Source of the DNA: Roseomonas nitratireducens
Lineage (GTDB): Bacteria > Pseudomonadota > Alphaproteobacteria > Acetobacterales > Acetobacteraceae
Length of the DNA: 64,000 bases
Direction: 5' to 3'
Assembly (NCBI RefSeq): GCF_017813355.1
Contig: NZ_JAGIYZ010000006.1
Coordinates: 24,001 to 88,000, forward strand
The first letter of the stretch is position 1; each line of letters begins with the position of its first letter. Position numbers and translations under genes: made by a program. The notes beneath the pieces were generated by a model. It ran no database searches. It saw nothing but the letters and a program-made list of their open reading frames with translations, and was not told the DNA's origin. Below, in pieces: positions 10,701 to 64,000 of the stretch.

Positions 10701-10707
10701 GGCCGCC

Positions 10708-16934: not shown

Positions 16935-17170
16935 GGCGCGTCCCCCTCGGCAGGAAACGCGTCCGCGAGGAGATCGCGCAGCATGTCCGCCACAGTCTGG
17001 CCGCGCTGGAACGCAGTGACCTTGATCCGACCGCGCAGGTCCGGCGTGACGTCGATCGTGAGGCGCGCCGTGTAGGCGATGGCGTCAGCCCTGCGGCCGC
17101 GCGGATCGTCGGCGGCCTTGATCCAGGTGTCCGGGTCGCCGGGCCGTGCGGCGAAACTGCGCCTGGTCAT
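16931..17170 (-). CDS. Small ribbon-helix-helix-like protein after ParA
   Basis: This 79-residue protein has a segment TARLTIDVTPDLRGRIKVTAFQRGQTVADMLRDLL typical in spacing of a ribbon-helix-helix DNA-binding domain (beta strand then two helices). Its start overlaps the parA stop in ATGA and its stop overlaps the DUF2840 start. Small RHH partners directly downstream of parA often act as ParB-like centromere binders or operon repressors, so that role is plausible. It is an inference from context and the short motif only. Longer in-frame extensions lie inside parA and were rejected. Confidence 0.78.
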   Translation of the reverse strand: MTRRSFAARPGDPDTWIKAADDPRGRRADAIAYTARLTIDVTPDLRGRIKVTAFQRGQTVADMLRDLLADAFPAEGDAP

Positions 17171-30061: not shown

Positions 30062-30141
30062 GGGGAAGACCTCGAGGAGAGCGGGAAACGGGGCGAGCCC
30101 TTGGGCGCTCTCTCTCGACCGTCCGGGCTCAAACCCGTCCC
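30062..30141 (-). ncRNA. Structured leader, diverged third copy
   Basis: The 80 bases before the notch-like gene contain GACGGGTT, then a GAGAGAGAG stretch and a distal CCCCGTTTC, ending close to the ATG. The order of elements resembles the better conserved leaders of the parB-like (33485-33540) and ardC (34614-34669) genes. The inner stem is not conserved, so membership is tentative. Confidence 0.42.
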
Positions 30142-30180
30142 GGCCTCCTCTGCCTCTCGACGTAAGAGCGGCAGGCTGCA

Positions 30181-36091: not shown

Positions 36092-36095
36092 CCCG

Positions 36096-45741: not shown

Positions 45742-45755
45742 CGTGTTCCCTTCCG

Positions 45756-48700: not shown

Positions 48701-49151
48701 CGGCCTGGTTGCGATCCATGACCCGTGCGCCGGGATCGATGTTGGCCTCCGCGGGATAGGGCTTAATGAGGCGCTGGCAGAAGCCGTGGATGGTCGAGCA
48801 CGTGATCTCGTCGATCCCCGCGCTGCCGGCGGCGAGATTGTTTCGATGGACCTCGGTCAGCCCATCGGGGAACGCGACGCGCAGTTCGGTTGCGATGATA
48901 CCGTCCGAGAGATCGGCGACGAACTCGCGGACGCGCGACAGTAGCTCGCTAGCGGCGAGTTCGGTGAAGGTGACGGCGGCGATGGAACGCGGCGCGACGC
49001 CTTCGGCCAGCATCGCGGCGATGCGGCCAGCCATGACGGCAGTCTTGCCCGAACCTGCGCCGGCCTCGACCAAGATCGAGCGATCATGCAGGCTGATCGC
49101 ATCGCGGCGTGCGCCGTCGTCCTTCAGCACCTTGGACACGCTGCTCATCAT
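45756..49151 (-). CDS. AddA-like UvrD-family helicase with C-terminal nuclease domain
   Basis: The 1131-residue protein combines an SF1A helicase and a RecB-like nuclease. Walker A AGAGSGKT is at 30-37, motif II in HVLVDEFQDTDPLQTEIF, motif III in LFLVGDPKQAIYRFRGADV, and motif V/VI in TMHAAKGLEWPIVI and LWYVAATRAR. The C-terminal motif VVVVDWKSD plus Q-x-x-x-Y gives a PD-(D/E)XK nuclease. This is the layout of AddA, but it is an element-borne copy separate from the chromosomal repair enzyme. It overlaps the AddB-like gene by 4 bases (ATGATGA). Together they would degrade DNA ends. Confidence 0.88.
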   Translation of the reverse strand: MMSSVSKVLKDDGARRDAISLHDRSILVEAGAGSGKTAVMAGRIAAMLAEGVAPRSIAAVTFTELAASELLSRVREFVADLSDGIIATELRVAFPDGLTEVHRNNLAAGSAGIDEITCSTIHGFCQRLIKPYPAEANIDPGARVMDRNQADLTFLEIVDGWLRERLSGGQGGILAEMVLHSPGETVALIQKIAENLRRRPTLAAPAVSPLDGHLTAFRQAAADFKGFMDGVTAAEPETVTIVERLAEMATALANGPDPATPAGLVRLLTLRPHPDLCTKAGAFASYRKKGKWAAAAKQAGLSKADGDRLNDGAESHYTSCCDAWLALAQAAAGHALAALIEEARPILQRYRDHKRSSAQLDFDDLIFAARDLLRDHDAVRRALGQRFAHVLVDEFQDTDPLQTEIFWRLCGEPADGDDDWTRFRIRPGALFLVGDPKQAIYRFRGADVGAYVQARDAFRAQDPGSLLSISTNFRSCASILTFVNERFEAVLSSDGQPGFNALDPFHDDTGGLCVAALDIAVADEHGKASAERQRDAEADAVAELCARLIESHPIIDRRSGEERPCQPGDIALLAPTGAELWRYEEALERRGIPVATQAGKGLFRRQEIQDLIALTRVLADRRDTLALGALLRGPLVGLTEEELLDIIWALPRSEEQPDRIPRLDLSIDSAVVAHPLAREVIERLQSLSRRGNSTTPHALLSQAVDVMRVRPLLLERHRGQAERALANVDLYLSLSTGYAVRGLRAFAEAMAAAWSDEARAVEGRPDAQEEAVALFTMHAAKGLEWPIVIPVNTMTSVMAPDSAVIDRQAETFYCPVLGVTPEGYETARQAEKEELDRERIRLWYVAATRARELLVLPRLDATPSKSAWIGLVDLSLAGLPGLDVSHLPAGLTAAGAGAGNTQTRASFAAEAEAIAAAQTRLTWLAPSRDESATGTVLQEEEAALWTGAADEQPPELEAAILVQGGRERGLILHKLMEEVLTGEILETEAALIERAAELIRALGQSSVADPAKGLSAQELAACVARTLALPDIAALRPGLLAEFPVYSAQAADGVENVTAGIADALTVGKDGRPVVVVDWKSDVNPEAQILEHYRAQVRAYLDMTGAERGLVVLMTRGTVIAVLPSPQTVAA

Positions 49152-51802
49152 TCCGCCTCCCAGACCTGAGCGACATCGCCAAGCCGCTCCGTGGCTGCCG
49201 GCATTTTGCGTTTGCAATAGGTGGCGCTGGCGTTGGCCGGCAGGGCGAAGGCGAGGTCGTCATAGTCGCCGCCGGTGTCCGGGCCAGGCAGTGCCGCACC
49301 GCCGGCGAGACTCGCCCTTGCCGCGCGCAGATAGCCTGTGATGTCGGCCAGCACGGCTTCGGGATCGTCGAGCTGAAGATCCACGGGCTCGCGCGGATAG
49401 AGCAGCGAGGCGCTGATGGCGACGTCGTCGCCGAGGAGCGCCTTCACCGCGAAAGCATAGAGGCAGCGTTGAAGTTCCCGCCCGCCGTTCAGCCGGATGT
49501 CGCTCCGCGGGGGGCGGCCTGTCTTGTAGTCACGCACCAGCGCACGTTTGCCGTCGCCCGAGATGTCGAGCCGATCAATATAACCGGCGATGTTGAAGCC
49601 CGTGCCGGGAATCGTGACCAGCTTGCGCGCATCCCAAGGCGTTTCAGCGTCGGATTTCGGCTCCGATCGACCGAAGGGTACCTCACCGTAGGAGCGCGCG
49701 CCCGGCAGTACATCTTCGCCATAGGACAGGGCTCGGCCCGCCATCACGCGAGCGTCTTCGAGTGTGCGCTGCCAGATGACGGCCGGTGGAACCGGACGTT
49801 CGCTTTCCCAATCGGCGGCGACGGCCTGCGCGGCCTCTGCTACCGCCGCTTCGATGGCTTCGATATCGGAGGAAACAAGGCCGCCTCCGGTTTCGAGTTT
49901 GCGCAAGGCGCGGTCGAGAACCATGTGGACGAGGTCACCGATCCCGAGCGCGTCGAGCACAAGCGGTTCTGCGCTGCTCTGAGGTTCACGCCATCCGAAC
50001 GCATAGACCCAGAGGAAGCTCAGCGGATTTCGCAGCAAGCGGCGCAACGAGCTGGCCGATTGGGTGCGGCTGAGGATGGCGAGAATGAGCGGATGATCCG
50101 CCCGCACGAGCCCGTCATGGGGGGTGATCTGCGCCTGCCGCCAGTCGCGCCAGCAACCCCGAGCGCTGACCGCCTGCGGATCAGTGGCAAACTCCTGGGG
50201 CCGGGCCATGAGGCGGTCGGTCTCGCTGAAGGCGTGGACCGGCGGCGCATTGCGGCGCAGATAAGTCTCGTCGCCATGTCCGGCGAGCAGGGGGCTACGA
50301 CCCAGGAGACGCCCATCGCTGTCGCGCCGGGCGCGCGAGAGAACGATGGTATCGGCCGTCGTGGCGAGGATTGTCTCGAAATCGCGGCGGTCGGCGAGAT
50401 TGACCGGCAGCGGGTCGAGCACTGGGGTCGGGATGATGTGGTCCGGGATCAGGCGGTCCTCGGCGATCCCACGCGGCCAACGCGAGGAGTTCAGGCCGAG
50501 GAGCCGGACAAAGCGGCGAGGCGACGCTGCGAGCGCGCTGGCGGGCATCCAGGCGACGGAAACGCATGCCTCCAGCCCGTCGTCCTGCTTCAGGGTTTCC
50601 AGAGTCGCGTCGATCGAGGCAGCAGGGCCGGCGAGCAGCGCCTTGCGCCAGATCGCGAGCGCGCGGCCCCTCAGGAAGGCTTCTCCGATCTCGCCGGCGG
50701 CGTCCGGCCCTTTCGCCAGAGTCTCGGCCGCTGCGCGCAGCGCTGGAACATGGTCGGCGCCGTCGGGCCAGTCTTCGGGCGCCAACCGGCTCAGCAGGCG
50801 GTTCCAGGCGCCCGACGTCGAGAGCGGCGCATCGGTCGGCAGGACACGCAGCCAGCCTTCAGGCAGGGTCTCGAATGGCCCGCTGTCGCGGCAGAGCGCC
50901 GCGAGGCGACGCAGCCGCGATTGCGACAGGCCACGGACCACGATGACGGCCAGCGCTGCGGCCGCCTGGCCCTCGCGGGTGGTGACCGTGCGGACGCCGT
51001 GGACGAAGTGCAGGTCGATATTGGCGTCGGCGCGCAGGGCCAGGAAATAATCGTCATAGTCGGCGGGCGATGCGGTTGCGATGGCGATATCCGAGGGCGA
51101 GACGCCATTGGCGAGCAGGCTGCGCGCCCAGCGCATCGCCTCGATGGCCTCATGATAGGCGGTCGCGGCGCTGACGGCGCTGATCCCTGGCGTTTGCGCC
51201 GGTGCATGCGCGACCGTGACGCCGATGCCGTCAAGCCAGGCGGGAACGCTTCTCGGGCCGGCCGTCCACTGCACCGGGATATGGGCAGCTAGGTCCTGGA
51301 GCAGTGGCCGCCAGCAGGGCGAGAGTTCGGTAAGACCGACGATTTCCATCGGTCCGAGGACGGCTGGCGCATGAGCGATGCGGGCGGTCGCGGCTGCAAC
51401 GATGTCGTGAGGCCGCATCATCCCGGGCGGAAGCTGGTCGAGGACGGCCGATTCTAGGCGCGCGATGGCGGCGAGACGCGGATGGACACCCGCGCATGCG
51501 GCAAGATCGACACCCGCGCGCCAGACTTTGTGGAGCGTGTCGGCCGCCGCGCCGATCATTCCGGGAAGAGCTTTGATGCCCTCAAGTTCGCCCATCGGCG
51601 TGGCGGGCAGGACGGCCTGGATGGCCGCACGCAGGCTCTCTTCGTCGATAGGGCGAACGAAGCCGCCAGCCAGTCGGACGGCGGCCTGCTCGAACGACAT
51701 GATCTGAAGGCCGTGACGACGGTCACGGCCAGCCGCCAGCCGGCGCTCCCGCATGGCGAGACGACCGTGAACGACCAGGGTGGAACGAAGCGCGATGGTC
51801 AT
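49148..51802 (-). CDS. AddB-like PD-(D/E)XK nuclease
   Basis: The 884-residue protein resembles AddB: an inactivated-helicase-like N-terminal two thirds (FVRLLGLNSSRWPRGIAEDRLIPDH, TILATTADTIVLSRARRDSDGR) and a C-terminal nuclease domain. The nuclease core is in GYIDRLDISGDGKRALVRDYKTG, with D and D-x-K, and later GGRELQRCLYAFA. The start at 51802 follows AAGGAGGGTGGC, a strong ribosome-binding site. It is the first large gene of the minus-strand operon, 11 bases after a 50-residue small protein. It should partner the AddA-like protein. Confidence 0.85.
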   Translation of the reverse strand: MTIALRSTLVVHGRLAMRERRLAAGRDRRHGLQIMSFEQAAVRLAGGFVRPIDEESLRAAIQAVLPATPMGELEGIKALPGMIGAAADTLHKVWRAGVDLAACAGVHPRLAAIARLESAVLDQLPPGMMRPHDIVAAATARIAHAPAVLGPMEIVGLTELSPCWRPLLQDLAAHIPVQWTAGPRSVPAWLDGIGVTVAHAPAQTPGISAVSAATAYHEAIEAMRWARSLLANGVSPSDIAIATASPADYDDYFLALRADANIDLHFVHGVRTVTTREGQAAAALAVIVVRGLSQSRLRRLAALCRDSGPFETLPEGWLRVLPTDAPLSTSGAWNRLLSRLAPEDWPDGADHVPALRAAAETLAKGPDAAGEIGEAFLRGRALAIWRKALLAGPAASIDATLETLKQDDGLEACVSVAWMPASALAASPRRFVRLLGLNSSRWPRGIAEDRLIPDHIIPTPVLDPLPVNLADRRDFETILATTADTIVLSRARRDSDGRLLGRSPLLAGHGDETYLRRNAPPVHAFSETDRLMARPQEFATDPQAVSARGCWRDWRQAQITPHDGLVRADHPLILAILSRTQSASSLRRLLRNPLSFLWVYAFGWREPQSSAEPLVLDALGIGDLVHMVLDRALRKLETGGGLVSSDIEAIEAAVAEAAQAVAADWESERPVPPAVIWQRTLEDARVMAGRALSYGEDVLPGARSYGEVPFGRSEPKSDAETPWDARKLVTIPGTGFNIAGYIDRLDISGDGKRALVRDYKTGRPPRSDIRLNGGRELQRCLYAFAVKALLGDDVAISASLLYPREPVDLQLDDPEAVLADITGYLRAARASLAGGAALPGPDTGGDYDDLAFALPANASATYCKRKMPAATERLGDVAQVWEAE

Positions 51803-51813
51803 TGCCACCCTCC

Positions 51814-51966
51814 TTACTGGTGCTTCTTCTTATTGGGACGCTGGGTTAGCACCGACGCGGCGGCCGTCTTCGCAATCTTGTCGCCCTTGGGGTCCCGCAA
51901 AACCTTCAAGGTTGCCGTGCCTGCTGGCCTGCTGGTGACTTCGCCTTTCGAACCGTGCTTCGGCAT
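51814..51966 (-). CDS. Small basic protein (50 aa) leading the AddAB-like operon
   Basis: A 50-residue basic frame starts MPKHGSKGEVTSRPAG and ends KTAAASVLTQRPNKKKHQ. Short proteins with the ending KTAAASALTQ recur in bacterial genomes, usually unannotated. Its ATG at 51966 has GGGAAGG 7 bases upstream, and it is 11 bases upstream of the AddB-like gene. It could bind nucleic acid or regulate the operon; this is guesswork from its charge and place. A longer start at 51999 (ATG) exists. Confidence 0.55.
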   Translation of the reverse strand: MPKHGSKGEVTSRPAGTATLKVLRDPKGDKIAKTAAASVLTQRPNKKKHQ

Positions 51967-51998
51967 CTGGCGCCTTCCCATCCGAACGCTGATCACCA

Positions 51999-52027
51999 TT
52001 GACGAGCGCCGCTGATGAGAATAATAA
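51999..52027 (+). promoter_or_regulatory. Promoter of the BREX operon
   Basis: TTGACG at 51999-52004 and TAATAA at 52022-52027 are 17 bases apart, a good sigma-70-type promoter. It lies ahead of the WYL-gene start at 52096 and supports that start over an upstream ATG at 52015. The region is notably AT-rich. A weak inverted repeat (CGTTATGA at 52039, TCATACG at 52074) may be a regulator site. Confidence 0.6.
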
Positions 52028-52095
52028 TTACACGGGTCGTTATGATCTGTCCATATAGATTTTATCCCCATCGTCATACGGAGAGACTGAAGGTG

Positions 52096-53019
52096 ATGCG
52101 AGCGGTCGCTGCGACGTTGAAATGGGGGGTGGAGCGCCGGCTGGAGTTCATCGAATTTCGGCTGCTCTGGGAGGGCGGGGTCAACCGCTCCGACATCATC
52201 GAGACGTTCGACGTGTCCGTTCCCCAGGCTTCGAAGGACTTGACGCTCTATCAGGAGCGAGCGCCCCAGAACGCGATCTATGACAAGAGCGCAAAGCGGT
52301 ATGTCGCTGGGCCCCAGTTCTCGCCGGTTTTCCTTAAGCCGGATCCAGACGGGTATCTGTCGCGTCTACGATCATTGGCGGAAGGCCTTGCTGATCCCGG
52401 CGACTCCTGGATCGCGAATCCGCCTGAGACCGACATTGCACTGACGCCGCGCCGCGAGGTGGATACAGGTGTGTTGAAGGCCGTTCTCCAAGCGGTCCGC
52501 GAGAACCGTTCGCTCGAAATCTATTATCAGTCGATGGGGAGCAGGCGAACCGATCCAATGTGGCGGCGCATGACGCCGCATGCCTTCGGCTACGATGGCT
52601 TCCGTTGGCATGTGCGCGGCTATTGTCATATCGATGAAAAGTACAAGGATTTCCTGCTGCCGAGGATTCTCGGCGTGCGCCAGATGGACGTGCCTGGCCC
52701 AGGTGGTGATCAGGATGTCTTGTGGAAAAAGACATTCGATATTGAAATCGGCCCGCATCCAGGGCTGACCCAAAGTCAACGTGCCGTGGTTGCGAAGGAC
52801 TATGGGATGACGAATGAGCGTGCCGTCCTCTCGGTTCGCTATGCCATGCTGTTCTACGTACTCAAGCGGCTCGGTCTCTTGGGGGACGCAAGCCAGCAGA
52901 ATGCGCGCGCCCAGCATATCGTTGCGCTCAATCCCCATGAGACAGAACGGGCGTTGCGCCGCGCGGATTTTGAGTTCGGCGAGGTCGAGCAGACTCCGAA
53001 AACGGTCGGAGAGGCTTGA
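52096..53019 (+). CDS. brxR: BrxR-like WYL transcription regulator
   Basis: The 307-residue protein has a winged helix-turn-helix N-terminus (WGVERRLEFIEFRLLWEGGVNRSDIIETFDVSVPQASKDLTLYQ) and a WYL-type domain with SLEIYYQSM and TPHAFGYDGFRWHVRGYCH. It matches BrxR-type regulators that head BREX operons and repress or tune them. The ATG at 52096 follows GAAGG and lies after the promoter; a 27-residue longer form is ruled out by promoter position. Its stop overlaps brxA (TGATG). The divergent small-protein/AddB operon shares the intergenic region and may be under the same control. Confidence 0.88.
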   Translation: MRAVAATLKWGVERRLEFIEFRLLWEGGVNRSDIIETFDVSVPQASKDLTLYQERAPQNAIYDKSAKRYVAGPQFSPVFLKPDPDGYLSRLRSLAEGLADPGDSWIANPPETDIALTPRREVDTGVLKAVLQAVRENRSLEIYYQSMGSRRTDPMWRRMTPHAFGYDGFRWHVRGYCHIDEKYKDFLLPRILGVRQMDVPGPGGDQDVLWKKTFDIEIGPHPGLTQSQRAVVAKDYGMTNERAVLSVRYAMLFYVLKRLGLLGDASQQNARAQHIVALNPHETERALRRADFEFGEVEQTPKTVGEA

Positions 53020-53639
53020 TGGAGCGTTCGCGGGAACAGCCGTATCTGATGTCCTTTGGGACCGGCGGTCTCTACATCAACGAAAGCGTGGCCATTGCCC
53101 GCCTGCATACATCCGGGAGCGATTGGGAAGCGACCGTGATCGTCGCCCAAGAGAGGGGGGCGTTTCCCGTGCGCAAGGCCAGTTCCGCGCGCCGTTCCAT
53201 TCGGGAGATCGTAAACCGCCTGAGGCGACTATCTGGATATGAACTAGCGCTGCTGATTAAAGGCGAGCGGAGCGAACAGGCGGCGCTGCTATGGCTCGCG
53301 GCCTGTCGTACTTACCGGTTCATCGCCGAGTTTGCCGTTGAGGTGGTGGGCGATAGGTTCCTATCGCTTCGCACGACCCTTACTTACGACGATTTCGACG
53401 CTTTTCTGTCGGCAAAGGAGGAATGGTCGCCGAAGCTCTCTGCGTTGTCGGTATCGACGCGCGCCAAGCTTCGTGCCGTGCTGTTTCGTCTGATGCGAGA
53501 AGCCGGGATCCTTTCGCAGGACAACCAGATCCTCGGGGCAATGTTGTCGCCGCGAGTTCTGGCTGTCATCGAGGCCGGAGACCTCGATGAACTCGGATAC
53601 TTCCCAGGGTCCGCACGGCTGGTGGGGAGGCAGGGATAA
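53019..53639 (+). CDS. brxA: BrxA (DUF1819)
   Basis: BrxA is a small core BREX protein with a DNA-binding fold. The 206-residue product begins MERSREQPYLMSFGTGGLYINESVAIARL, the DUF1819 signature, and continues with RRSIREIVNRLRRLSGYEL. The ATG at 53019 overlaps the brxR stop; a TTG three bases earlier is less likely. It overlaps brxB at TAATG. Its exact role in phage exclusion is not settled in any system. Length is typical. Confidence 0.93.
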   Translation: MERSREQPYLMSFGTGGLYINESVAIARLHTSGSDWEATVIVAQERGAFPVRKASSARRSIREIVNRLRRLSGYELALLIKGERSEQAALLWLAACRTYRFIAEFAVEVVGDRFLSLRTTLTYDDFDAFLSAKEEWSPKLSALSVSTRAKLRAVLFRLMREAGILSQDNQILGAMLSPRVLAVIEAGDLDELGYFPGSARLVGRQG

Positions 53640-54250
53640 TGGCGCGGCTGAGCAAGACAGCAACCGCTAAGGACCGCTTCGACCACCTTCTCAGAGTGAT
53701 CGCCAGCGACAGATTCTTGAAGAAGCAGGGCCTCGGCAATGAAGTGCCGTTCTTCATTTGCCCATATCCGGCTGAGGAAGCGCAGGGCATGGAGACGTTG
53801 CGCGCGAGCCTCGTGAAGCAACTCGAGAACCGCGGCGTACGCGTGTTTGAGATCAATCTCTATGACCTCAGCATCTCCCTGCTGCACAACCGCGGCATCT
53901 GGGACGACGTTCTCGCGGTGGAGCCAAGCATTGGAAAGGACGAGCTCAAAGAGCTTTTGCAAGGGGTTCTCGATCCGGAAACTCATCTCATTCCGGAAAT
54001 TGGTGCCCTTCTTGAGAAGCAGCAGTTCGACGTCCTGTTCCTTTCCGGTGTTGGCGAGGTCTACCCCTACATCCGATCCCACAATGTGTTGAACAACCTC
54101 CAGAGCACCGCCAAGGAAAAGCCAACGGTGATGTTCTTTCCCGGCAAATACACACAAAGTTTGGATGCCGGTGCTTCACTTGATTTGTTCGGTATCCTGC
54201 ACGACGACAAATACTACCGGGCGTTCGACATAACGCACTATGAGGTCTGA
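53639..54250 (+). CDS. brxB: BrxB (DUF1788)
   Basis: The 203-residue protein matches DUF1788: RFDHLLRVIASDRFLKKQGLGNEVPFFICPYPAEE, then LDPETHLIPEIGALLE and FDVLFLSGVGEVYPYIRSHNVLNNLQ, ending in TVMFFPGKY. BrxB is a core BREX component needed for defence and, in some systems, for methylation. It overlaps brxA and lies 7 bases before brxC. All conserved blocks are present. Confidence 0.94.
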   Translation: MARLSKTATAKDRFDHLLRVIASDRFLKKQGLGNEVPFFICPYPAEEAQGMETLRASLVKQLENRGVRVFEINLYDLSISLLHNRGIWDDVLAVEPSIGKDELKELLQGVLDPETHLIPEIGALLEKQQFDVLFLSGVGEVYPYIRSHNVLNNLQSTAKEKPTVMFFPGKYTQSLDAGASLDLFGILHDDKYYRAFDITHYEV

Positions 54251-54257
54251 GGGGCGC

Positions 54258-57200
54258 ATGATCACACTTCGCGATATCTTCGAAAAGCCCGTCGATCGTG
54301 CGATCGAAGGGGTCATAAAGGCCGATGACGAAGCCAGCCTCAAGGTTGAGCTTGAGGAATATGTCATCACGAACGAGATCGAGCGCCAGTTCGAAAAGTT
54401 CCTCGATGCTTACAATAACTATGGCACGGCAAACGGAGTCTGGATTTCTGGCTTCTTCGGCTCAGGCAAATCGCATCTGCTGAAAATGCTCGCGCTCCTT
54501 TTGGAGAACCGGGACATCGGCGGAAGCCCAGCTTACGAGGTTTTCAAACAGAAGTGCGCGCACAATGAGATTCTCGCGGCCGACCTGCGCAAGGCCGTTT
54601 CGATCCCGTCGAAGAGCATCCTGTTCAATATCGACCAGAAAGCCGACGTGATTTCGAAGGGGCAGACCGACGCCCTGCTGTCCGTATTCCAGAAAGTCTT
54701 CGACGAAGTGGGCGGCTATTATGGCAAGCAGCCGCACATCGCGCAGTTCGAGCGCGATCTCGACAGTCGCGAGGTACTTGAGGCGTTCAGGGCGGCCTAT
54801 CAAGCTGTTGCTGGTAAACCCTGGGAGCGCGGACGCGAGCAGGCACTGCTGGAGAACGCGAATGTCGCCAAGGCCTATGCCCAAGCCACCGGCGCCAATC
54901 CCTCCGAAGGCGAAGGCATATTGACGCGGTATCGGCAGGACTTCCGGTCGTCAATCGAGGACTTTGCCGAGAAGGTCAGGGCTTACATCGAATCCCAGAA
55001 GCCGGGCTTCCGGCTGAATTTCTTCGTCGATGAGGTGGGGCAGTACATCGCCGACAACGTCAAGCTCATGACGAACCTCCAGACCATCGCGGAGAGCTTG
55101 AACACCAAGTGCCGCGGTCGGGCCTGGATCATCGTGACGGCGCAGCAGGATATGGCGTCGGTCATCGGCGACATGAACCAGCGACAGGAGAACGACTTCT
55201 CCAAGATTCAGGCACGCTTTGCAAATCGGATGCCACTCAACAGCGCCGATGTCGCCGAGGTGATCCAGAAGCGGCTGCTCAAAAAGACCGAGTCCGGCAT
55301 CACCAGCCTTTCCGACCTCTACCACCGCGAGTCGAATAACCTGAAGACGCTGTTCGACTTCACGGATGGTTCGATCCGGCTAGAGAACTTCCGCGACCGC
55401 GATCATTTCATTCACAGCTATCCTTTTGTTCCTTACCAATATCCGCTTTTCCAGTTGGCGATTCAGAACCTTTCCCAGCACAACGCTTTCGAGGGAAAGC
55501 ATAGCTCGGTCGGTGAAAGGTCCATGCTGGGCGTTTTCCAAGAAGTCGCGGTGCGGCTGGCGGAACTGCCGCTCGGCGGGCTTGCGACGTTCGATCAGAT
55601 GTTCGAGGGCATCCGCACTGCGCTCAAATCGAATGTCCAGCAATCGATCCTGATTGCCGAGAAGAACCTGGGTGACGAATTCGCCACACGGATTCTGAAG
55701 GCGCTGTTTCTGGTCAAATACGTCAAGGGCTTCAAGCCCACGGCCCGCAATGTCGCCGTACTGATGCTTGATAGGTTCGACACGGACCTCACGAAGCATA
55801 AGCGGCGGGTTGATGAAGCGCTGAGCTTGCTTGAGCAGAACACCTACATCCAGCGCAATAGCGAGCTGTTCGAATTCCTGACTGATGAGGAGAAGGACGT
55901 CGAACAGGAGATCAAAGCGATCGAAGTCGACACGGCGGAAATCGCCAAGGAGCTGGAGACGCTGATTTTCGATGGCGTCATCAAGAGCCGTAAGCTCAAG
56001 CACGAGGCGTCCTCGCAGGACTACGCCTTTGCGCGCTACCTCGATGACCGGCTGCTCGGCCGCGACTACGAGCTGGCGATCAACGTCATCACGCCCTTTC
56101 ACGAACAGAGCGGCAACGCCGAAGCGACCGCCATGCGCACCATGTCGAGGGACGAACTCGCCATTGTTCTCAATGCCGACAACCGCTTCGTGAGCGACCT
56201 GATGACCTTCAAGCGGACGGATAAATATGTCCGTCAGGCGCGGTCAGTGACGCAGCAGGCGAGCATCGAACGTATCGTCCGCGAGAAGGGCGAGCAGAAT
56301 AACAGCCGGCAGCGCGATCTCGCCCTCAAGGCTCGCGCTCTGGTGGGCGATGCGCGGCTTTTCGTGCGCGGGGAGGAAATCGAGGTTCGCTCCGAGGATG
56401 CTCAGGCGCGGGTCGAGCGTGCGTTCCAGACCCTTGTCGATAAGGTCCACGTCAATCTCGGAATGCTGCGCGGTGCTGCCTATTCCGATAACGAGATCGG
56501 CCGGTTCCTCACGCACGGCAACGACGGCATGTTCGGCGAGGATGCTGCCAATCTCACGGAGGCCGAGCAGGAGATTCTCAACTTCGCGCAGTCAAACGCG
56601 CGCAACGGCATCAGGACGACGGTAAAGGCCGTCGTCGAGCGCTTCGAACGCAAGCCCTATGGCTGGTCCTACGCCGCCATCCTTTGCACCACGGCTAGCC
56701 TGCTTGGCCGTGGCAAGATCGAAGCGCGCTCTGACGGCAGCCCGTTGGAAGGCGATGCCTTGCTGCGCGGGCTCCAGAACGCCCACGCCCTCGGCAATAT
56801 CGTGCTCGAGCTCCAGGTGGAGTTCACGCCGGCTCAGACGCGCAAGCTCAAGGAATTTTTCCGCGAGTTTTTTGATGCGCAGCCGGCAGGCACCGAGGGC
56901 AAAGCACTCGGAATCGAGACAGCCGAAGCCTTCGGCACGCTCAAGACCGAGCTCGCGGTCCTGGAAGGACAATCCTCGCGTTACCCCTTTCTGTCTGCCC
57001 TGGGTCAGCTTCAGGACGCCCTCCGCGAGGTCACGGGCAAGCCCTACGCCTGGTATCTGCAGGAGCTTGGCCGGCACGAAGATCGACTACTCGATCTTAA
57101 GGAGGGCATTCTCGATCCGATCCGTCGCTTCATGGGGGGCGGTCAAAAGGCGATTTATGACGAGGCGCGGAGCTATCTGGCCGATCAGAATGCCAATTTC

Positions 57201-57791
57201 GGCTATGGCGGCGAAGATCAGGCCCGCGCCATCCAAGAGGTATTGGTTGATCCCAATTGCTTCAAGGGCAACGCAATCCAGCAGATCAAGGGTACCCTTG
57301 ATACCCTGAGGGCTGAGGTTGACCATCGGCTTGCGGCGGAACGTAAGACAGCGATTTCCGATGTCGAGGAGCTTCGCGCCAAGCTTCGAGCGCTCCCCGA
57401 GTTCGCTTCTTTGACGGAGCCTGACCGCCGCGAAATCGAGGCGGCCTTCACAAATGTTCTTGATACCATCGGGACCAGCAAGCTGATCGCGGTGATCCGG
57501 GAGCGCGTGAGCGGATTCCGAGCCTCGGGCTACCCGACGTTGCTCGGCCGCGTAACGGCGCCGCCTTCTGCGAAGAAGGACGGTGACGACGACAAGCCGG
57601 GCGGCTTCAGCGACAGTTCGAGCGGCGCACCGGCGGCGCAGACCCAACCGGAATATGTGGCCGCCAGTGCGCTGCGCGTCACCTATGCGAAGGCGTACCT
57701 AGCCGACGAACGGGACATTGACGCCTATCTGGAGACCCTGCGCGAGACGCTGATCTCCGAAATTCGCTCGGGCAAGCGGGTGACCGTGTAA
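54258..57791 (+). CDS. brxC: BrxC, BREX ATPase
   Basis: BrxC is the large P-loop ATPase of BREX, related to PglY. The 1177-residue protein starts MITLRDIFEKPVDRAIEGVIKADD and has a Walker A GFFGSGKSH at 65-73 and a Walker B region in RLNFFVDEVGQYIAD. The IIVTAQQDM and ARFANRMPLNSADVAEVIQKR segments are typical of the family. Length and sequence fit BrxC of type 1 BREX. It overlaps the next gene at TAATG, an ATPase not part of the core set. Confidence 0.94.
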   Translation: MITLRDIFEKPVDRAIEGVIKADDEASLKVELEEYVITNEIERQFEKFLDAYNNYGTANGVWISGFFGSGKSHLLKMLALLLENRDIGGSPAYEVFKQKCAHNEILAADLRKAVSIPSKSILFNIDQKADVISKGQTDALLSVFQKVFDEVGGYYGKQPHIAQFERDLDSREVLEAFRAAYQAVAGKPWERGREQALLENANVAKAYAQATGANPSEGEGILTRYRQDFRSSIEDFAEKVRAYIESQKPGFRLNFFVDEVGQYIADNVKLMTNLQTIAESLNTKCRGRAWIIVTAQQDMASVIGDMNQRQENDFSKIQARFANRMPLNSADVAEVIQKRLLKKTESGITSLSDLYHRESNNLKTLFDFTDGSIRLENFRDRDHFIHSYPFVPYQYPLFQLAIQNLSQHNAFEGKHSSVGERSMLGVFQEVAVRLAELPLGGLATFDQMFEGIRTALKSNVQQSILIAEKNLGDEFATRILKALFLVKYVKGFKPTARNVAVLMLDRFDTDLTKHKRRVDEALSLLEQNTYIQRNSELFEFLTDEEKDVEQEIKAIEVDTAEIAKELETLIFDGVIKSRKLKHEASSQDYAFARYLDDRLLGRDYELAINVITPFHEQSGNAEATAMRTMSRDELAIVLNADNRFVSDLMTFKRTDKYVRQARSVTQQASIERIVREKGEQNNSRQRDLALKARALVGDARLFVRGEEIEVRSEDAQARVERAFQTLVDKVHVNLGMLRGAAYSDNEIGRFLTHGNDGMFGEDAANLTEAEQEILNFAQSNARNGIRTTVKAVVERFERKPYGWSYAAILCTTASLLGRGKIEARSDGSPLEGDALLRGLQNAHALGNIVLELQVEFTPAQTRKLKEFFREFFDAQPAGTEGKALGIETAEAFGTLKTELAVLEGQSSRYPFLSALGQLQDALREVTGKPYAWYLQELGRHEDRLLDLKEGILDPIRRFMGGGQKAIYDEARSYLADQNANFGYGGEDQARAIQEVLVDPNCFKGNAIQQIKGTLDTLRAEVDHRLAAERKTAISDVEELRAKLRALPEFASLTEPDRREIEAAFTNVLDTIGTSKLIAVIRERVSGFRASGYPTLLGRVTAPPSAKKDGDDDKPGGFSDSSSGAPAAQTQPEYVAASALRVTYAKAYLADERDIDAYLETLRETLISEIRSGKRVTV

Positions 57792-58963
57792 TGATTGCCG
57801 GCGTCGAGATCGAGAACTTCACGGCGTTTGGGAGGCTGCAGCTATCGCTGTCTCCGCGCGTGAATGTCGTCATTGGTTCCAACGGGACGGGCAAAACACA
57901 CCTTCTGAAGGCGATCTATGGCCTGGCGCTGGCGGGCCTGCCGGCATCCGCCGATCGTTCGGCCAAGGAGGTAGCGGCCGACATATCAGGGAAGCTGCTG
58001 CGGCTCTTCTCTCCCGAGGAAAGCAAGATAGGCGCACTGCGAGCCAGCGGCGCGAATGCATTAACGCGGCTTAGCTTGGTAAGCAGCGATGAGACCCGCG
58101 TAGCGATCTCTTTCGGCAGCCGCTCCCAAGCGGTGCAGATCAACGTGGATGCGGGCGGCACGGGCCATGAACTCCAGCCGGTATTCATTCCGACGAAGGA
58201 GGTACTGTCGCTCGTCCGTGGCATGCGCCACCCGGATCATGATCGCGCTACCGTGGAGATGATCTTCGACGACGGCTATATCGACCTCGCGGAACTTCTC
58301 GTCCGTCCGGGTTTCGAGGACGAGGCTGCGAGCCTGGATGAGGATCCGAGGCTATCGAGCGTTGTCCGCGAATTGGTCGACCTAGTCGGCGGACGGTATC
58401 GCTGGACACGCGAAGGCGCTTTCCGCTTCGAGCCTGGCCGCTACGAGGAGAAGGCCGATCCGGCGCGGTCAAAGTCGAAGGCAGCGCAGGCCTACCAGGA
58501 TTCGACGGTCACCCGCTTCGTGCCGAGAGGCGAGCAATCGCTGTCGAGCGGCATGACCGCCGAGGGGTACAGAAAAATCGGTGTGCTGCATCGACTGCTC
58601 AGCAACGGGTCGATCAGCCCCGGCGCCACTGGTGTTCTGCTGTGGGACGAACCGGAGGCAAATCTCAATCCGAAGCTGATGAAGAAGCTCGTGCAGGTCC
58701 TGCTGGAGTTGTCACGCAATGGCCAGCAGATCGTCCTCGCCACACACGACTACGTCCTTTTGAAATGGCTGGACCTGCTGATCGACAAAGGCAAGGACGA
58801 CCATGTTCGGTTTCACGCCCTCTATCGCGATCCAGACTCTCAGAAACTGGCGGTGGAGAGTGCCGACAGCTACTCGCTGATCTCAAAATCGGCAATCTCC
58901 GACACCTTTGCCGAGCTGTTTGACGAGGATGTGGCGCGGGCTCTCGGCGGTGCCAAACCATGA
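57791..58963 (+). CDS. AAA ATPase inserted in BREX (SMC/OLD-like)
   Basis: The 390-residue protein is an ABC/SMC-type ATPase: GVEIENFTAFGRLQLSLSP start, Walker A GSNGTGKT at 29-36, a signature-like SLSSGMTAEGYRKIGVLHRLL, Walker B VLLWDEPEANLNP and H-switch IVLATHDY. It resembles AAA15/OLD proteins of defence pairs. Its start overlaps the brxC stop and its end overlaps the next small gene by 4 bases. It is not part of the canonical brxABC-pglX-pglZ-brxL set. Together with the following nuclease-like gene it looks like an embedded effector module. Confidence 0.88.
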   Translation: MIAGVEIENFTAFGRLQLSLSPRVNVVIGSNGTGKTHLLKAIYGLALAGLPASADRSAKEVAADISGKLLRLFSPEESKIGALRASGANALTRLSLVSSDETRVAISFGSRSQAVQINVDAGGTGHELQPVFIPTKEVLSLVRGMRHPDHDRATVEMIFDDGYIDLAELLVRPGFEDEAASLDEDPRLSSVVRELVDLVGGRYRWTREGAFRFEPGRYEEKADPARSKSKAAQAYQDSTVTRFVPRGEQSLSSGMTAEGYRKIGVLHRLLSNGSISPGATGVLLWDEPEANLNPKLMKKLVQVLLELSRNGQQIVLATHDYVLLKWLDLLIDKGKDDHVRFHALYRDPDSQKLAVESADSYSLISKSAISDTFAELFDEDVARALGGAKP

Positions 58964-59511
58964 AGGCTTACAAGGCTGAACCGAACGCCGATTTGGAATT
59001 CTCATTTCCCGACGAGCTCGTTTGGGAGGAGCTGGACCGTCAGGGCGTTAAGCTGCCGATCCAAATGAAGTTCGTCGATCTCGTGATCGAGAGAGACGAC
59101 GACGTGCTACTGGTCGAGATCAAGGACCCGTCCAACAAGAGGGCGCCCGCTGAGGAACAGCAGGCGTATTTCAAGCGGCTATCGGACAATTCAATCCTTA
59201 CGCAGGAGCTGACGCCCAAGGCCCGCAGTTCATACACTTTTCTCCACCTGATGGAGCGCGATGCGAAGCCCTTCAAGTATGTCGTGCTGCTAGGTCTCGA
59301 CGCGTTCGATGGCGCGCAACAGAAGGCGCTCCTCACCGGCTTCAAGGATCGGCTGCTTGCCGACATTCGTTGTGAGACGGATACGCCCTGGCGACGCCAA
59401 CACATCGCGGATTGCGTCGTGCTTTCCGTAGACATCTGGAACAAAACCTTCGCCGACTGGCCCGTAACTCGGGTTCCTGCTGCGGCCGCAAATGGAGAGG
59501 CAGCCGCCTGA
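58960..59511 (+). CDS. PD-(D/E)XK-like nuclease partner of the inserted ATPase
   Basis: The 183-residue protein contains FVDLVIERDDDVLLVEIKDP, a PD-(D/E)XK core with Asp about 40, Glu about 53 and Lys about 55. An upstream Glu-rich stretch (FPDELVWEELDRQG) may supply the fourth residue. I do not recognise a named family. It overlaps the ATPase gene by 4 bases and pglX at TGATG, so it is fully integrated in the BREX message. The pairing of an SMC-like ATPase with a small nuclease recalls Septu and PARIS in layout only; the protein folds differ from PtuB (HNH) and AriB (toprim). Confidence 0.78.
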   Translation: MKAYKAEPNADLEFSFPDELVWEELDRQGVKLPIQMKFVDLVIERDDDVLLVEIKDPSNKRAPAEEQQAYFKRLSDNSILTQELTPKARSSYTFLHLMERDAKPFKYVVLLGLDAFDGAQQKALLTGFKDRLLADIRCETDTPWRRQHIADCVVLSVDIWNKTFADWPVTRVPAAAANGEAAA

Positions 59512-62500
59512 TGGATACCTCAAAGCTCAAGAAGTTCGCGCAGTTTGCCCGCCGTACCTTGATCGGCCAGGTAAGCGCCAAGCTGGATTCCGTGCTTGCT
59601 CCTGGCGCCCCGGCGCGACGAGAGCATCCCGAAGCGATGAAGAAGCTCGATGCGGCTATCGCCCGGGACGGCAAGACCCAGGTGATCGAGCGGGTGGCCT
59701 ATATTTGGTTCAACCGCTTTACGGCCTTGCGCTTCATGGACGTAAACGACCTCAATCCCGTTCGCGTGATCTCACCCTTGTCCGGTCAATTCCAGCCGGA
59801 AATCCTGGCCGAGGCCAAAGCCGGGAACATCGACGAGGACCGCGTCCCCGATAAGGTTCGCGCTCAGGTCCGTGCCCTTCTGGATGGTCGAGCGCCCAGC
59901 CCCGATGCACAGGCCGAGGCTTACCGGCTCCTGCTCGTTGCGATCTGCAACGATTGGCATCGGGTCATGCCTTTCCTCTTTGAGCGGATCGACGACTACA
60001 CCGAGCTGCTGTTGCCCGAGGATCTGTTATCGAACGGATCCATCCTCGCCTATTTGCGCGAGGCGATGACACCGGACGTCTGCGAGGACGTCGAGGTCAT
60101 CGGTTGGCTCTACCAGTTCTACATCAGCGAGAAGAAGGATGAGGTCTTCGCAGGGCTGAAGAAGAACGTGAAGATCACGGCCGAGAACATCCCGGCCGCG
60201 ACGCAACTCTTCACTCCGCACTGGATCGTCCGTTACCTGGTCGAGAACTCGCTGGGGCGGCTGTGGCTGCTGAACCGGCCGGGGTCGAGGCTGGCCGGGC
60301 AGATGGACTACTACATCGCGCCGGAAGAACCCGAGACGGATTTTCTGAAGATCGGCAAGCCGGAGGAGATCAAAGTCTGTGATCCGGCCTGCGGATCGGG
60401 GCACATGCTGACGTATGCCTTCGACCTGCTCTATGCGATCTACGAAGAAGAAGGATACGAGGCCGACAAGATCCCCGCGCTGATCCTGCAGCACAACCTG
60501 ACCGGAGTCGAAATCGACGACCGCGCAGGCGCGCTGGCGGCCTTTGCGGTGGCGATGAAGGCGGCGGCGCGACTGGGGCGGCGGCGGTTCCTACGGATGG
60601 AGGCGAAGCCCGACATCTGCGTGCTGCAGAACGTGACCTTCACCCCCGCCGAGTTGCGGGACGTGGCCGCTGTGGTGGGGCGCGACCTGTTCACCGACGA
60701 ACTGCGCGAGACGCTGCTGCAGTTCGAGCAGGCCAAGAACTTCGGTTCGCTGATTGTGCCGAAGCTGCGAGACCCAACCGAGGCGCTGCGGGTGGTTGAG
60801 GCGCGGGACTTTGGCTCCGATCTGCTGCTGAACGAGGTGCAGGCGCGCGTTGTGGCCGTGCTGCGCATGGCCGAGACGCTGTCGCCGAAGTATCATGTGG
60901 TGGTGGCCAACCCGCCGTACAAAAAGAAGGCGGACCTTAATGACAAATTGCAGGCTTTCCTTGAGGAGAACTTCAAGGACGGCAAATATGACCTTTATCA
61001 GGCCTTCATCTTGCGAAATTTGGATCTCGCACGCCGGTTCGGACTGGTTGGGATGATCACAATGCAAGGATGGATGTTCGCACCTCGATACGAATCTATT
61101 CGGTCTACGCTTCTTTCCCGCGCAACCATTCGTGGCATGGCCCAACTCGGAGAACGTGCGTTTGACTCGATCGGAGGTGAAGTTGTCACCACAACCTCCT
61201 TTTTGCTCGCCAACGTAGCAGCCCCCGATTTCAAAGGTGATTTCTTAAAGCTGACTGACGGACAAGACGAGTCAGAAAAGGAACGCGACCTACTGAATGC
61301 CGCCAGAGACAAGCGGAATCCGCTCAGGTTCCGCGTTTCGGCTGAGCAGTTTGAGAAGATTCCAGGGGACCCGTTAGTCTACTGGGCGCAAGAGAGGATT
61401 AGAGATTTATTTGGTAGCCACAGCCCCATCTCGGACTCCATAGTCACGCGAGAAGGTCTAGCTACTGGTAGCAACGCCATTTTCCTCAGAGAGTGGCACG
61501 AAGTCAGCTTAGGCAATGCAGGCTTCGGAATGGCCAACAACCAAGAAGCCAAATTATCCCAGATGCGTTGGTTCCCTTACGTCAAAGGCGGTGGTTCTCG
61601 TCGCTGGTATGGTAACCTCGAGCATTTTGTAAACTGGTATGACGATGGCGCTGAGCTTCGAAACTTCAAGGACCAGAAGACGGGGAGGGTACGGTCGCAC
61701 AATTACAACGGTGAATTCGGATTCAGGCGAGGATTCACTTGGTCTGGGATCTCCGGCAATGACTTCGCAATCCGCTTCGTGCCGTCCGGGTTCATGTTCG
61801 ACGCAAAAGGCCCCATGGGGTTCATCGATGAACTAGATCTGGAGGCGCCGGTACAAGGTTTCTTGAATAGTCGAGTTGCAAGCTTTCTGCTGCGGATGCT
61901 GGCTCCAACGCTAGATTTCAAGCTCACGCACGTACTGAGTTTGCCTTTCTCGGTTCAATCGAGGACGTCGCTCGCGCAGATCGTTGAAAGCGCGATTACC
62001 ACGGCGAAATCCGACTGGGACGCCTACGAAACCTCCTGGGATTTCGATACCCTCCCATTGCTCTCGCCTGATCTCCGGGCCGGGACGCTGGAGGCAACTT
62101 ATGCCCGTCTGCGCGCCCACTGGCAGGGCATGACGGACGGGATGCAGCGGCTGGAGGAAGTGAATAATCGCATCTTCATCGACGCCTACGGCCTCCAGGA
62201 CGAGCTGACTCCGCAGGTGCCGATCGAGGAAGTCACTCTCACGTGCAACCCCGCCTACCGTTATGGCTTGAATGGTGCCGAGGAAGACCGCGAAACACGC
62301 CTGCTTGCCGACACAATGGCTGAGTTCATCTCCTATGCTGTGGGCTGTATGTTCGGCCGCTACAGCCTCGACGTGCCCGGCCTGGTTCTTGCTAATCAAG
62401 GGGAGGCACTGGCCGACTACCTGGCCCGAGTGCCGAAGCCGTCCTTTTTGCCGGATGAAGACAACGTTATCCCGGTGCTCGATGGCGACTGGTTCGCCGA

Positions 62501-63041
62501 CGACGTCACCGAACGCTTCCGCCGGTTCCTGCGCGTTACCTTTGGCGAGGAGCATTTCCAGCAAAACCTCGCCTTCGTAGAGGAGGCGCTGGGCAAGGAT
62601 ATCCGCCGGTACTTCACGCGCGACTTTTTCAACGATCACGTGAAGCGCTACAAGAAGCGGCCCATCTACTGGCTGTTCTCCAGCCCCAAGGGCACTTTCA
62701 ACGCGCTGATCTACATGCACCGCTACCGCCCCGATACGGTGAGCGTGGTGCTGAACGATTATCTTCGCGAGTTCCGGTCCAAGCTCGAGGCCTATCGCCG
62801 GGCGCAGGAAGCACTCAGCATCAGCGGAGATGCGTCGCCTGCGCAGAAAACCAAGGCGCTGAAAGAGATCGAGGCGACAGCCCGCCAAATCGAGGAGCTT
62901 GATGGCTGGGAGCGTGATGTCCTGTTCCCGTTGGCGACCCAAAAGATAGAGATCGACCTCGATGATGGGGTGAAGGCGAATTACCCGAAGTTCGGCGCTG
63001 CTCTGAAGCCCATCAAGGGCCTCAACGATTCGGACGACTGA
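59511..63041 (+). CDS. pglX: PglX, BREX type 1 adenine methyltransferase
   Basis: PglX marks host DNA by N6-adenine methylation, which lets BREX tell self from phage. The 1176-residue protein has DPACGSG (motif I) at 291-297 and NPPY (motif IV) at 467-470. The ATG at 59511 gives the usual N-terminus MDTSKLKKFAQFARR and overlaps the nuclease stop. The segment coded by about 60950-62000, after NPPY, is clearly less GC-rich than the flanks, as expected for a swapped target-recognition domain. The C-terminal helical spacer is intact to the stop. Confidence 0.94.
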   Translation: MDTSKLKKFAQFARRTLIGQVSAKLDSVLAPGAPARREHPEAMKKLDAAIARDGKTQVIERVAYIWFNRFTALRFMDVNDLNPVRVISPLSGQFQPEILAEAKAGNIDEDRVPDKVRAQVRALLDGRAPSPDAQAEAYRLLLVAICNDWHRVMPFLFERIDDYTELLLPEDLLSNGSILAYLREAMTPDVCEDVEVIGWLYQFYISEKKDEVFAGLKKNVKITAENIPAATQLFTPHWIVRYLVENSLGRLWLLNRPGSRLAGQMDYYIAPEEPETDFLKIGKPEEIKVCDPACGSGHMLTYAFDLLYAIYEEEGYEADKIPALILQHNLTGVEIDDRAGALAAFAVAMKAAARLGRRRFLRMEAKPDICVLQNVTFTPAELRDVAAVVGRDLFTDELRETLLQFEQAKNFGSLIVPKLRDPTEALRVVEARDFGSDLLLNEVQARVVAVLRMAETLSPKYHVVVANPPYKKKADLNDKLQAFLEENFKDGKYDLYQAFILRNLDLARRFGLVGMITMQGWMFAPRYESIRSTLLSRATIRGMAQLGERAFDSIGGEVVTTTSFLLANVAAPDFKGDFLKLTDGQDESEKERDLLNAARDKRNPLRFRVSAEQFEKIPGDPLVYWAQERIRDLFGSHSPISDSIVTREGLATGSNAIFLREWHEVSLGNAGFGMANNQEAKLSQMRWFPYVKGGGSRRWYGNLEHFVNWYDDGAELRNFKDQKTGRVRSHNYNGEFGFRRGFTWSGISGNDFAIRFVPSGFMFDAKGPMGFIDELDLEAPVQGFLNSRVASFLLRMLAPTLDFKLTHVLSLPFSVQSRTSLAQIVESAITTAKSDWDAYETSWDFDTLPLLSPDLRAGTLEATYARLRAHWQGMTDGMQRLEEVNNRIFIDAYGLQDELTPQVPIEEVTLTCNPAYRYGLNGAEEDRETRLLADTMAEFISYAVGCMFGRYSLDVPGLVLANQGEALADYLARVPKPSFLPDEDNVIPVLDGDWFADDVTERFRRFLRVTFGEEHFQQNLAFVEEALGKDIRRYFTRDFFNDHVKRYKKRPIYWLFSSPKGTFNALIYMHRYRPDTVSVVLNDYLREFRSKLEAYRRAQEALSISGDASPAQKTKALKEIEATARQIEELDGWERDVLFPLATQKIEIDLDDGVKANYPKFGAALKPIKGLNDSDD

Positions 63042-63043: not shown

Positions 63044-64000
63044 ATGCAGGACCGGATCGCCAAGGGGCTCGAAGCCCAATTCGACAAGCACCGGATCGTC
63101 TTCTGGTACGATCCGGCGCAAGAATTCCGACAGGCGTTTGAGGCCCTGACGCTCGACGGCGTGGAAAAGATCGAGGTGGCGAACACCGAGTTCGCGGTGA
63201 AGCATCGCGTCCTGCGTGAAGAGCCGAAGCGGCGGTTCCTGCTCTATCGGAACGGGCCGCGCCCCGCCGACATCGATAACTGGCTGCTCGACATCGAGTT
63301 GGCACATGGGGTGTTCAAGAGCGATCAGGTCGCGATCTGGCTGGCGGACCTGGGATTGCCGATCAGTTTCGAGGACGTGGTTCGGGAACACCAGGAATTC
63401 TTTCGGTCAGGTCGGAGGCTGGAGAAACTCAAGGTTGCCGTCCGGGGTGACGACACGAAAGCGAAGCTACGCCTGAGGATGCTCAGCGTGTGCGCCGGGG
63501 CCGATGGTGACTTCGACACGGTCGTCGAGGCGCTGTTGGGAGAGCTAGCTGTCGGAAAGGATGACAGCCTGCGGTTGATCGATCGTGTCGGCTTAAGCGG
63601 TTTCCTCTGGGAACAGATGCAAAGGCTATTCGGCTACCGCACTGAAATGGCGAGCGTCAGCGACTTCGCGATCACGCTGTTCAAATCCTGCTACCAGAGC
63701 GCGGTCGGCGGCGAAGCGATGCTGGCTCCCGAGGCTCTGGTGTTCTTCCGTCGCTGGAAGAACAACCGGAACGCAGAGGAGGCTTTTGCGAGCCTCTCGG
63801 CCGAGTATGCCGAGGCACTGGGGGTGGCCCAGGATCTCGCCAAGCGCGACTTCCGCACGCTCATCGACGTGGACTACTTCGAGGAGGTCGACCGCGCCAT
63901 CATCCGCGCGTTGGTCCATGAGGTCGGCAGCCAAACAGTGGCGCAGGGAGATGTACTGAACTGGATCCGCCAACGTCGGCAGAGCCATTGGTATGGCGCG
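63044..64000 (+). CDS. pglZ: PglZ, BREX alkaline-phosphatase-like protein (5' part)
   Basis: The frame opens with ATG at 63044, 2 bases after the pglX stop, and stays open for 319 codons to the window edge. The N-terminus MQDRIAKGLEAQFDKHRIVFWYDP, then FRQAFEALTLDGVEKIEV and RPADIDNWLLDIELAHGVF, matches the PglZ N-terminal region of type 1 BREX. The phosphatase core lies beyond the window. Its place after pglX completes brxA-B-C-pglX-pglZ order; brxL is expected next. Confidence 0.92.
   Translation, partial: MQDRIAKGLEAQFDKHRIVFWYDPAQEFRQAFEALTLDGVEKIEVANTEFAVKHRVLREEPKRRFLLYRNGPRPADIDNWLLDIELAHGVFKSDQVAIWLADLGLPISFEDVVREHQEFFRSGRRLEKLKVAVRGDDTKAKLRLRMLSVCAGADGDFDTVVEALLGELAVGKDDSLRLIDRVGLSGFLWEQMQRLFGYRTEMASVSDFAITLFKSCYQSAVGGEAMLAPEALVFFRRWKNNRNAEEAFASLSAEYAEALGVAQDLAKRDFRTLIDVDYFEEVDRAIIRALVHEVGSQTVAQGDVLNWIRQRRQSHWYGA

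Follow-up and report, generated by a model that had tools for sequence, protein, structure and literature searches.

Two overlapping genes between brxC and pglX

We analysed a 64,000-nucleotide stretch of the Roseomonas nitratireducens genome (positions 24,001 to 88,000 of contig NZ_JAGIYZ010000006.1; hereafter the window), in which a type 1 bacteriophage exclusion (BREX) operon harbours a pair of genes between brxC and pglX. These two intact open reading frames (ORFs), adjacent on the forward strand and flush with the genes on either side, are hec02A (57791-58963), which encodes an SMC/Rad50/OLD-like ABC ATPase of 390 amino acids that is the probable sensor and activator, and hec02B (58960-59511), which encodes a PD-(D/E)XK-type nuclease of 183 amino acids that is the probable effector. 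The best PADLOC family is HEC-02A for the ATPase (332 bits, E = 1.1e-99, residues 1-386) and HEC-02B for the small protein (237 bits, E = 1.9e-71, residues 1-173).

The operon is complete. It opens with genes for a WYL regulator, BrxA and BrxB (52015-54250), followed by brxC (54240-57791; NCBIfam BrxC, 1230 bits), the pair, pglX, which encodes the methyltransferase (59511-63041, with its ATG at 59511 and its stop at 63041; BREX-1 PglX, 1434 bits), and a type A pglZ that runs out of the window (63044-64000; full gene 63044-65545 in the extended sequence), all on the forward strand. It ends past the window with brxL, on the same strand (65542-67635 of the extended sequence; named by its place and by tblastn with relatives). 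The pair, an embedded dyad of SMC/OLD-type ABC ATPase and PD-(D/E)XK-type nuclease, lies inside the core BREX genes, and its three junctions overlap: TAATG at 57789-57793 between brxC and the ATPase gene, ATGA at 58960-58963 between the two members of the pair, and TGATG at 59509-59513 between the nuclease gene and pglX. An earlier note on this DNA, made from the sequence alone, had described both ORFs, their lengths and the three overlaps exactly as we find them. We infer that the pair is co-translated with brxC and pglX.

The existence of 438 homologues at E ≤ 1e-3 counts against chance ORFs. Across six pairs drawn from four operons, the ratio of non-synonymous to synonymous substitution rates (dN/dS) ranged from 0.084 to 0.135 in the ATPase gene and from 0.010 to 0.117 in the nuclease gene, and both genes are under purifying selection, as in the BREX core. 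In the public records for two plasmid operons, both complete, the proteins appear as ‘ATP-binding protein’ or ‘hypothetical protein’, generic annotation under which the pair is easily overlooked.

The ATPase contains what we take to be a Walker A motif (GSNGTGKT, residues 29-36; 57875-57898), a signature-like motif (AEGYRK, residues 257-262; 58559-58576), a Walker B motif with catalytic glutamate E287 (GVLLWDEPE, residues 281-289; 58631-58657) and an H-loop-like T318-H319 (58742-58747). Among 30 aligned members, G29, N31, G34, K35 and T36 of the first, E258, G259, R261 and K262 of the second, W285, E287 and P288 of the third and both residues of the last are invariant. The predicted model aligns over its whole length with the PtuA fold (VIA-align) and, on motifs and fold together, the protein is an SMC/OLD-type ABC ATPase. 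Its C-terminal tail (residues ~341-390; 58811-58960) is modelled as strands at 339-346 and 353-358 and a helix at 368-384. A comparison of the ATPase with phages returned 4 distant records only.

In the nuclease, the predicted active site D40-E53-x-K55 (59077-59124, forward strand) is invariant in 35 aligned members; of 19 more relatives that a profile picked out, 15 retain it. In a member from a type 2 BREX operon (L089) the lysine is replaced by arginine. The three residues sit on successive strands of the nuclease model. The protein is PD-(D/E)XK-like on triad and model, with middling fold matches: Foldseek gave no decisive match, a sequence search of the PDB nothing useful, and a search for relatives in viral contigs and phages led nowhere. 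It could be supposed that this fold serves only DNA binding or regulation, with no nuclease action, and that the ATPase works like RecF or Rad50, as a repair protein or a loading factor in the DNA transactions of BREX; the conservation of D40, E53 and K55 argues against this reading, which we regard as very improbable. A separate contig fragment (L131, reverse strand, 205-5138) carries the pair and, downstream of it, CheW-like and methyl-accepting chemotaxis genes that overlap, the contig ending just upstream; its nuclease triad reads N-E-K.

Joint exchange of the ATPase tail and the nuclease

Comparison of closely related operons revealed that the nuclease has been replaced together with the tail of the ATPase. 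At the DNA level (blastn), the window and the operon L077 are 89.4% identical over 51921-58817, which ends at about codon 342 of the ATPase gene; the stretch that follows (58818-59496, forward strand), a cassette of tail and nuclease, yields no alignment, and identity resumes at 84.4% over 59497-60920 and, after a gap, at 90.6% from 62011. L003 compared with L077 gives the same edges. A second such case is provided by L087 and L023, which are 93.6% identical up to about codon 340, unalignable from there until just before pglX, then 91.3% and, after a gap in pglX, 88.4% identical. In a control comparison (L006 against L003), the alignment ran through the pair at 80.6% and broke in pglX only. 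The proteins tell the same story: between L077 and L003 identity is 87% in the ATPase body, 40% in the tail and 30% in the nuclease, and between L087 and L023 it is 97%, 42% and 26%. The replacing nucleases of L077 and L087 are 72% identical to each other, and the second type of nuclease also occurs in L086, a third operon (52-53%), whose tail is 61% and whose body is 41% identical to those of L077. Both exchanged operons also differ in about 1 kb in the middle of pglX, a difference common in this set and located in what is presumably the target-recognition part, and match elsewhere.

In a 27-row phylogeny of the ATPase bodies, the second type requires three changes, or four if L131 is counted, whose nuclease is 33-35% like it; placing L077 and L087 in a single clade was rejected (approximately unbiased test, p-AU 2e-5). 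Across 19 loci (171 pairs), the last 50 residues of the ATPase followed the nuclease with a rho of 0.92; the remaining blocks of the ATPase reached 0.39-0.54, and those within PglX residues 1-340 reached 0.21-0.45 (0.30 for the first 50 residues of PglX). With 38 sequences the last ATPase block was again the highest (rho 0.75 versus 0.16-0.59). Since the end of the ATPase follows the nuclease and the start of PglX does not, the exchange is one-sided; plain linkage would be expected to affect both flanks.

Two points weigh on the other side. When L077, L086 and L087 are set aside the effect is gone, with a rho of 0.81 for the tail and 0.93 for the body, and the correlated pairs are not independent of one another. 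We therefore rejected a general signal of tail-nuclease co-evolution as over-reading: the claim rests on three loci and not on steady co-variation. With that scope, the joint occurrence of a second type of tail and nuclease, as in L077 and L087, points to the tail as a possible dock for the nuclease. As a separate observation, synonymous divergence (dS) between L005 and L006 is 0.42 in the nuclease gene, as against 0.89 in the ATPase gene and 1.05 in brxC, which hints at a more recent exchange of the nuclease.

A dock of this kind has a counterpart in WonAB, an abortive-infection pair of an OLD-ABC ATPase and a PD-(D/E)xK nuclease in which, in the sections of that report drawn on here, the nuclease is predicted to bind C-terminal extensions of its ATPase (Adams et al. 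2025, PMC12137116). Because an exchange unit of tail and nuclease is what a WonAB-like dock predicts, we favour, with a confidence only a little above even, the reading that the pair is a semi-autonomous, WonAB-like abortive-type module of the HEC-02 family that acts within the type 1 BREX operon as a fail-safe. We infer dimerisation, docking, trigger, target and abortive outcome as follows. The ATPase probably dimerises in the SMC/OLD manner, dependent on ATP, and its C-terminal tail probably carries the small nuclease. On an infection cue, possibly that BREX has failed or been inhibited, the ATPase would switch and release the nuclease to attack nucleic acid of the host or the phage, so that phage production would be stopped and the cell sacrificed, while co-translation with brxC and pglX would keep the amount of the pair matched to that of BREX. 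The back-up effector that the earlier note had offered as one of two possibilities is thereby the best reading of the pair. The exchanged operons are natural chimeras, with a different tail and nuclease set in an otherwise conserved ATPase and between conserved core genes, and they allow direct tests both of the tail as dock and switch and of BREX failure as the trigger.

Host operons and the place beside the methyltransferase gene

The pair was found in several kinds of host operon, namely BREX types 1, 2 and 3, Hma and a helicase-methylase system, and also outside these. A genome scan for the pair yielded 36 loci. All 22 in which the nuclease was at least 60% identical (L003-L024) lie in type 1 BREX operons; the other 14 (36-49% identical) have no BREX gene of the window's type, two of them being type 3 BREX (L031, L032) and two (L030, L033) placing the pair with an HKD and Snf2-type helicase and a large methylase, an arrangement that resembles BREX-related systems. 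The order brxC-pair-pglX recurs in 20 further operons (L003-L014, L017, L021-L024, L077, L086 and L087), with a 589-residue Schlafen/AlbA-type protein (Pfam) between BrxC and the ATPase in L012, a gap of 428 nt at that point in L021 and a split pglX downstream in L014. In five others (L015, L016, L018, L019, L020) the pair follows the N-terminal half of a split pglX, and in another type 1 lineage (L125, L129) it lies between pglX and pglZ. A Polaromonas plasmid carries it in a type 2 BREX operon, between pglX and a 1240-residue gene preceding pglZ that, by place alone, is a putative PglY; in L139 and L140 it comes directly after HmaB, and a Pseudanabaena plasmid has a free-standing pair separated from an HTH regulator by a single small gene. 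PADLOC confirmed HEC-02 for the scanned partners of L032, L033, L077, L088, L089, L129, L139 and L140.

A phylum-wide sample gave a wider view, with HEC-02A matches (E ≤ 1e-30) in 31 of 398 genomes, at 37 places, of which 36 were examined (one, in G528, was left out). Five are type 1 BREX operons (the window, L064, L077, L125 and L129) and two are Hma. The other 29, several of them on stretches that end at contig ends, had no neighbour from the BREX reference set (E ≤ 1e-6). The exceptions are L143, with a weak PglX-like stretch (53 bits), and L122 and L126, where the pair is accompanied by relatives of the 910-residue gene that adjoins the L033 helicase. Around six other pairs, 10 neighbouring genes were compared with PADLOC, and nine of them matched nothing at 1e-8.

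These data bear on whether the pair is instead an integral restriction subunit of a BREX sub-lineage, which would act only with BrxC, PglX and PglZ, cut unmethylated incoming DNA and supply the double-strand nuclease that classical BREX lacks. The layout is as tight as such a subunit would have it, with a gap of -1 to 19 nt between nuclease gene and pglX in 18 of 18 measured operons and of -1 or -4 between brxC and the ATPase gene in 16 of the 18. On a 73-row ATPase tree, all 26 members from the brxC-pglX position or a split pglX fall in one clade (support 100, SH-like approximate likelihood ratio test, SH-aLRT, only), which also takes in L131, the fragment with its upstream context cut off. 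In the type 1 clade, divergence of the ATPase body goes with that of BrxC (rho 0.72, rising to 0.79 when the three loci are omitted), which is close to BrxB-PglZ (0.80 and 0.78) and lower than BrxC-PglZ (0.91). By these measures of phylogeny and co-divergence, the pair is a long-term resident of the type 1 brxC-pglX lineage. Relatives outside BREX speak against such a subunit, and so does the sporadic presence of the pair: BrxC was found in 9 of 385 genomes of a class sample and in 17 of 398 of the phylum sample (two shared, 24 distinct), and 4 of these 24 have the pair in their operon, far from the majority expected of a core type 1 component. It stands between brxC and pglX in three (the window's own genome, G223 and G581) and between pglX and pglZ in one (G518, where the presumed placement spans two contigs). 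Of the 24, 22 were fetched and the own operon was in the window; the one omitted was G465, with brxC at the end of a contig and its sole HEC-02A match on another contig (L135) that has no BREX genes. It would also be odd for a fitted part of a complex to change its nuclease type while the aligned flanks, brxC and pglZ included, remain 88-94% identical in DNA. We consider the integral subunit doubtful, and with it the novel part of the BREX complex that the earlier note had entertained.

Other embeddings are scattered on the ATPase tree among relatives from other contexts, making several independent recruitments likely. Wherever HEC-02 pairs are embedded in the five kinds of host system, they nearly always adjoin the methyltransferase gene. 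We keep this as an observation and do not make it a rule, given the small ORFs that separate the pair from the methyltransferase gene in type 3 operon L031, the few Hma junctions that do not touch the methylase and the sharing of the slot with other genes. In a bolder idea, HEC-02A would be a guard repeatedly recruited beside methyltransferases (of BREX types 1, 2 and 3, Hma and the helicase-methylase system) that senses their block and fires a swappable nuclease, tail and nuclease forming the unit of exchange. We think this unlikely; were it true, one resident sensor could be re-armed with different effectors.

The slot between brxC and pglX is usually empty, as had been supposed: among 20 fetched operons without the pair there, 15 have no same-strand ORF of at least 90 amino acids at that place (in two cases the genes are some 0.5 kb apart), four have other genes (L072, L073, L082, L083) and in one (L066) no pglX was seen. 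L083 has an OLD-like ATPase, PDC-M07A, at the slot, and the 570-residue slot gene of L082 had no match in the scan. In L073 (reverse strand, 6562-11952) the slot holds a 589-residue protein with a PADLOC profile like that of L012, together with a PsyrT/PsyrA pair and no HEC-02. Elsewhere, L010 has a GmrSD-like HEC-05 between pglX and pglZ, and L014 (12786-15755) and L015 (10555-13575), both also with the HEC-02 pair, have a UG5-nitrilase reverse transcriptase between the halves of a split pglX; ORFs of similar size occur in L016 and L019 (1006 and 1004 amino acids). That other defence genes use the same junctions implies that the place beside pglX may be a general habit of BREX accessories.

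Such shared slots, occupied by HEC-05, the reverse transcriptase and PsyrTA, would also suit an addiction or passenger cassette, either toxic on loss or a harmless insert beside methyltransferase genes, that stabilises the operon and is not anti-phage. Against it stand the sensor-type ABC ATPase fold with its intact ATPase motifs and the match of 9 of the 10 slot neighbours chosen for scanning to defence families, and WonAB, in the portions of its report used here, is not a simple toxin-antitoxin pair (PMC12137116). A cassette of this kind seems to us quite unlikely, and we retain the fail-safe module.

Further genes were noted in and around these loci. In L017 (10552-18023) the pair is followed by a tandem of long pglX genes, of 1330 and 1159 amino acids, and in the Methylomonas plasmid BREX operon L086 a second annotated PDDEXK nuclease gene (15969-17126) lies between pglX and pglZ. 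In the window, the forward strand at 34871-42369 encodes PDC-S01 (566 bits) and then a ZacA-ZacB-ZacC operon (PADLOC, 296, 384 and 881 bits). Just upstream of the BREX operon and on the opposite strand (42400-51808, reverse), an AddAB-like layout comprises a ResIII/DEAD helicase, a UvrD-type helicase with PD-(D/E)XK and a second PD-(D/E)XK protein. A 1484-residue protein (25727-30181, reverse strand) weakly matches the MADS protein Mad2 (38 bits).

Comparison with known systems

Pairs of this kind were already known, and this one is a member of PADLOC HEC-02, both proteins having their top matches there in the same order and on the same strand. HEC stands for Hma-embedded candidate, according to the portions used of PMC12988326 and PMC10855318, whereas the pair here is embedded in type 1 BREX; the PADLOC entry states no function, and a literature search found no defence paper naming HEC-02. 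In L139 (8509-10084, reverse strand), PDLC04145 (170 positions, labelled HEC-02A) matches the nuclease and PDLC04146 (344 positions, labelled HEC-02B) the ATPase, so the two labels look interchanged.

The same two-protein class appears, in the sections consulted of a recent survey, as OLD-ABC ATPases paired with PD-(D/E)XK or other nucleases in BREX/BR operons and proposed to be backup effectors (Rakesh & Krishnan 2026, PMC12839542); the likeness is one of class, and exchange of tail and nuclease is absent from those sections. How BREX withstands phage inhibitors is a question to which embedded effectors have been put forward as one answer. With HEC-02 in PADLOC and these dyads in the survey, the pair does not count as unrecognised, an outcome that the earlier note had itself listed as refuting its claim, here as regards novelty. 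The earlier interpretation survives as to the type of pair, the conserved residues and, as the best reading, the back-up role; it falls as to novelty, and membership of the BREX complex is disfavoured.

Its likening of the layout to Septu and PARIS, with a different nuclease fold, is sound. PARIS, an OLD-type ATPase with a nuclease, is reported in BREX operons in the same survey sections (PMC12839542). We rejected it as an assignment, the best AriA model scoring 78 bits against 332 for HEC-02A and no AriB or TOPRIM family matching; AriB is a TOPRIM nuclease, whereas the partner here is of PD-(D/E)XK type. Gabija, in which GajA has a fused TOPRIM and GajB is a helicase, was likewise rejected, since the 390-residue ATPase has no TOPRIM match and its partner is no helicase. 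Septu (PtuA/PtuB) and the PtuAB of retron Ec78/Eco7 share the ATPase fold that aligns with PtuA. PtuB is an HNH nuclease, and Septu was rejected as the 183-residue protein has no PtuB or HNH match. PD-T4-4, also an ATPase plus nuclease and named as similar to WonAB in the sections drawn on (PMC12137116), was rejected as well (PD-T4-4_A, 38 bits; no match to PD-T4-4_B).

WonAB itself, compared by its description in those sections, has the same kinds of parts and is the closest experimentally tested analogue that we found, although it is prophage-borne and free-standing and its nuclease is smaller (16.1 kDa); its abortive infection goes with a shut-off of translation. Set beside these systems, what this analysis adds is the conservation of the triad, the range of host operons, the long residence in the brxC-pglX lineage and the exchange of tail and nuclease.

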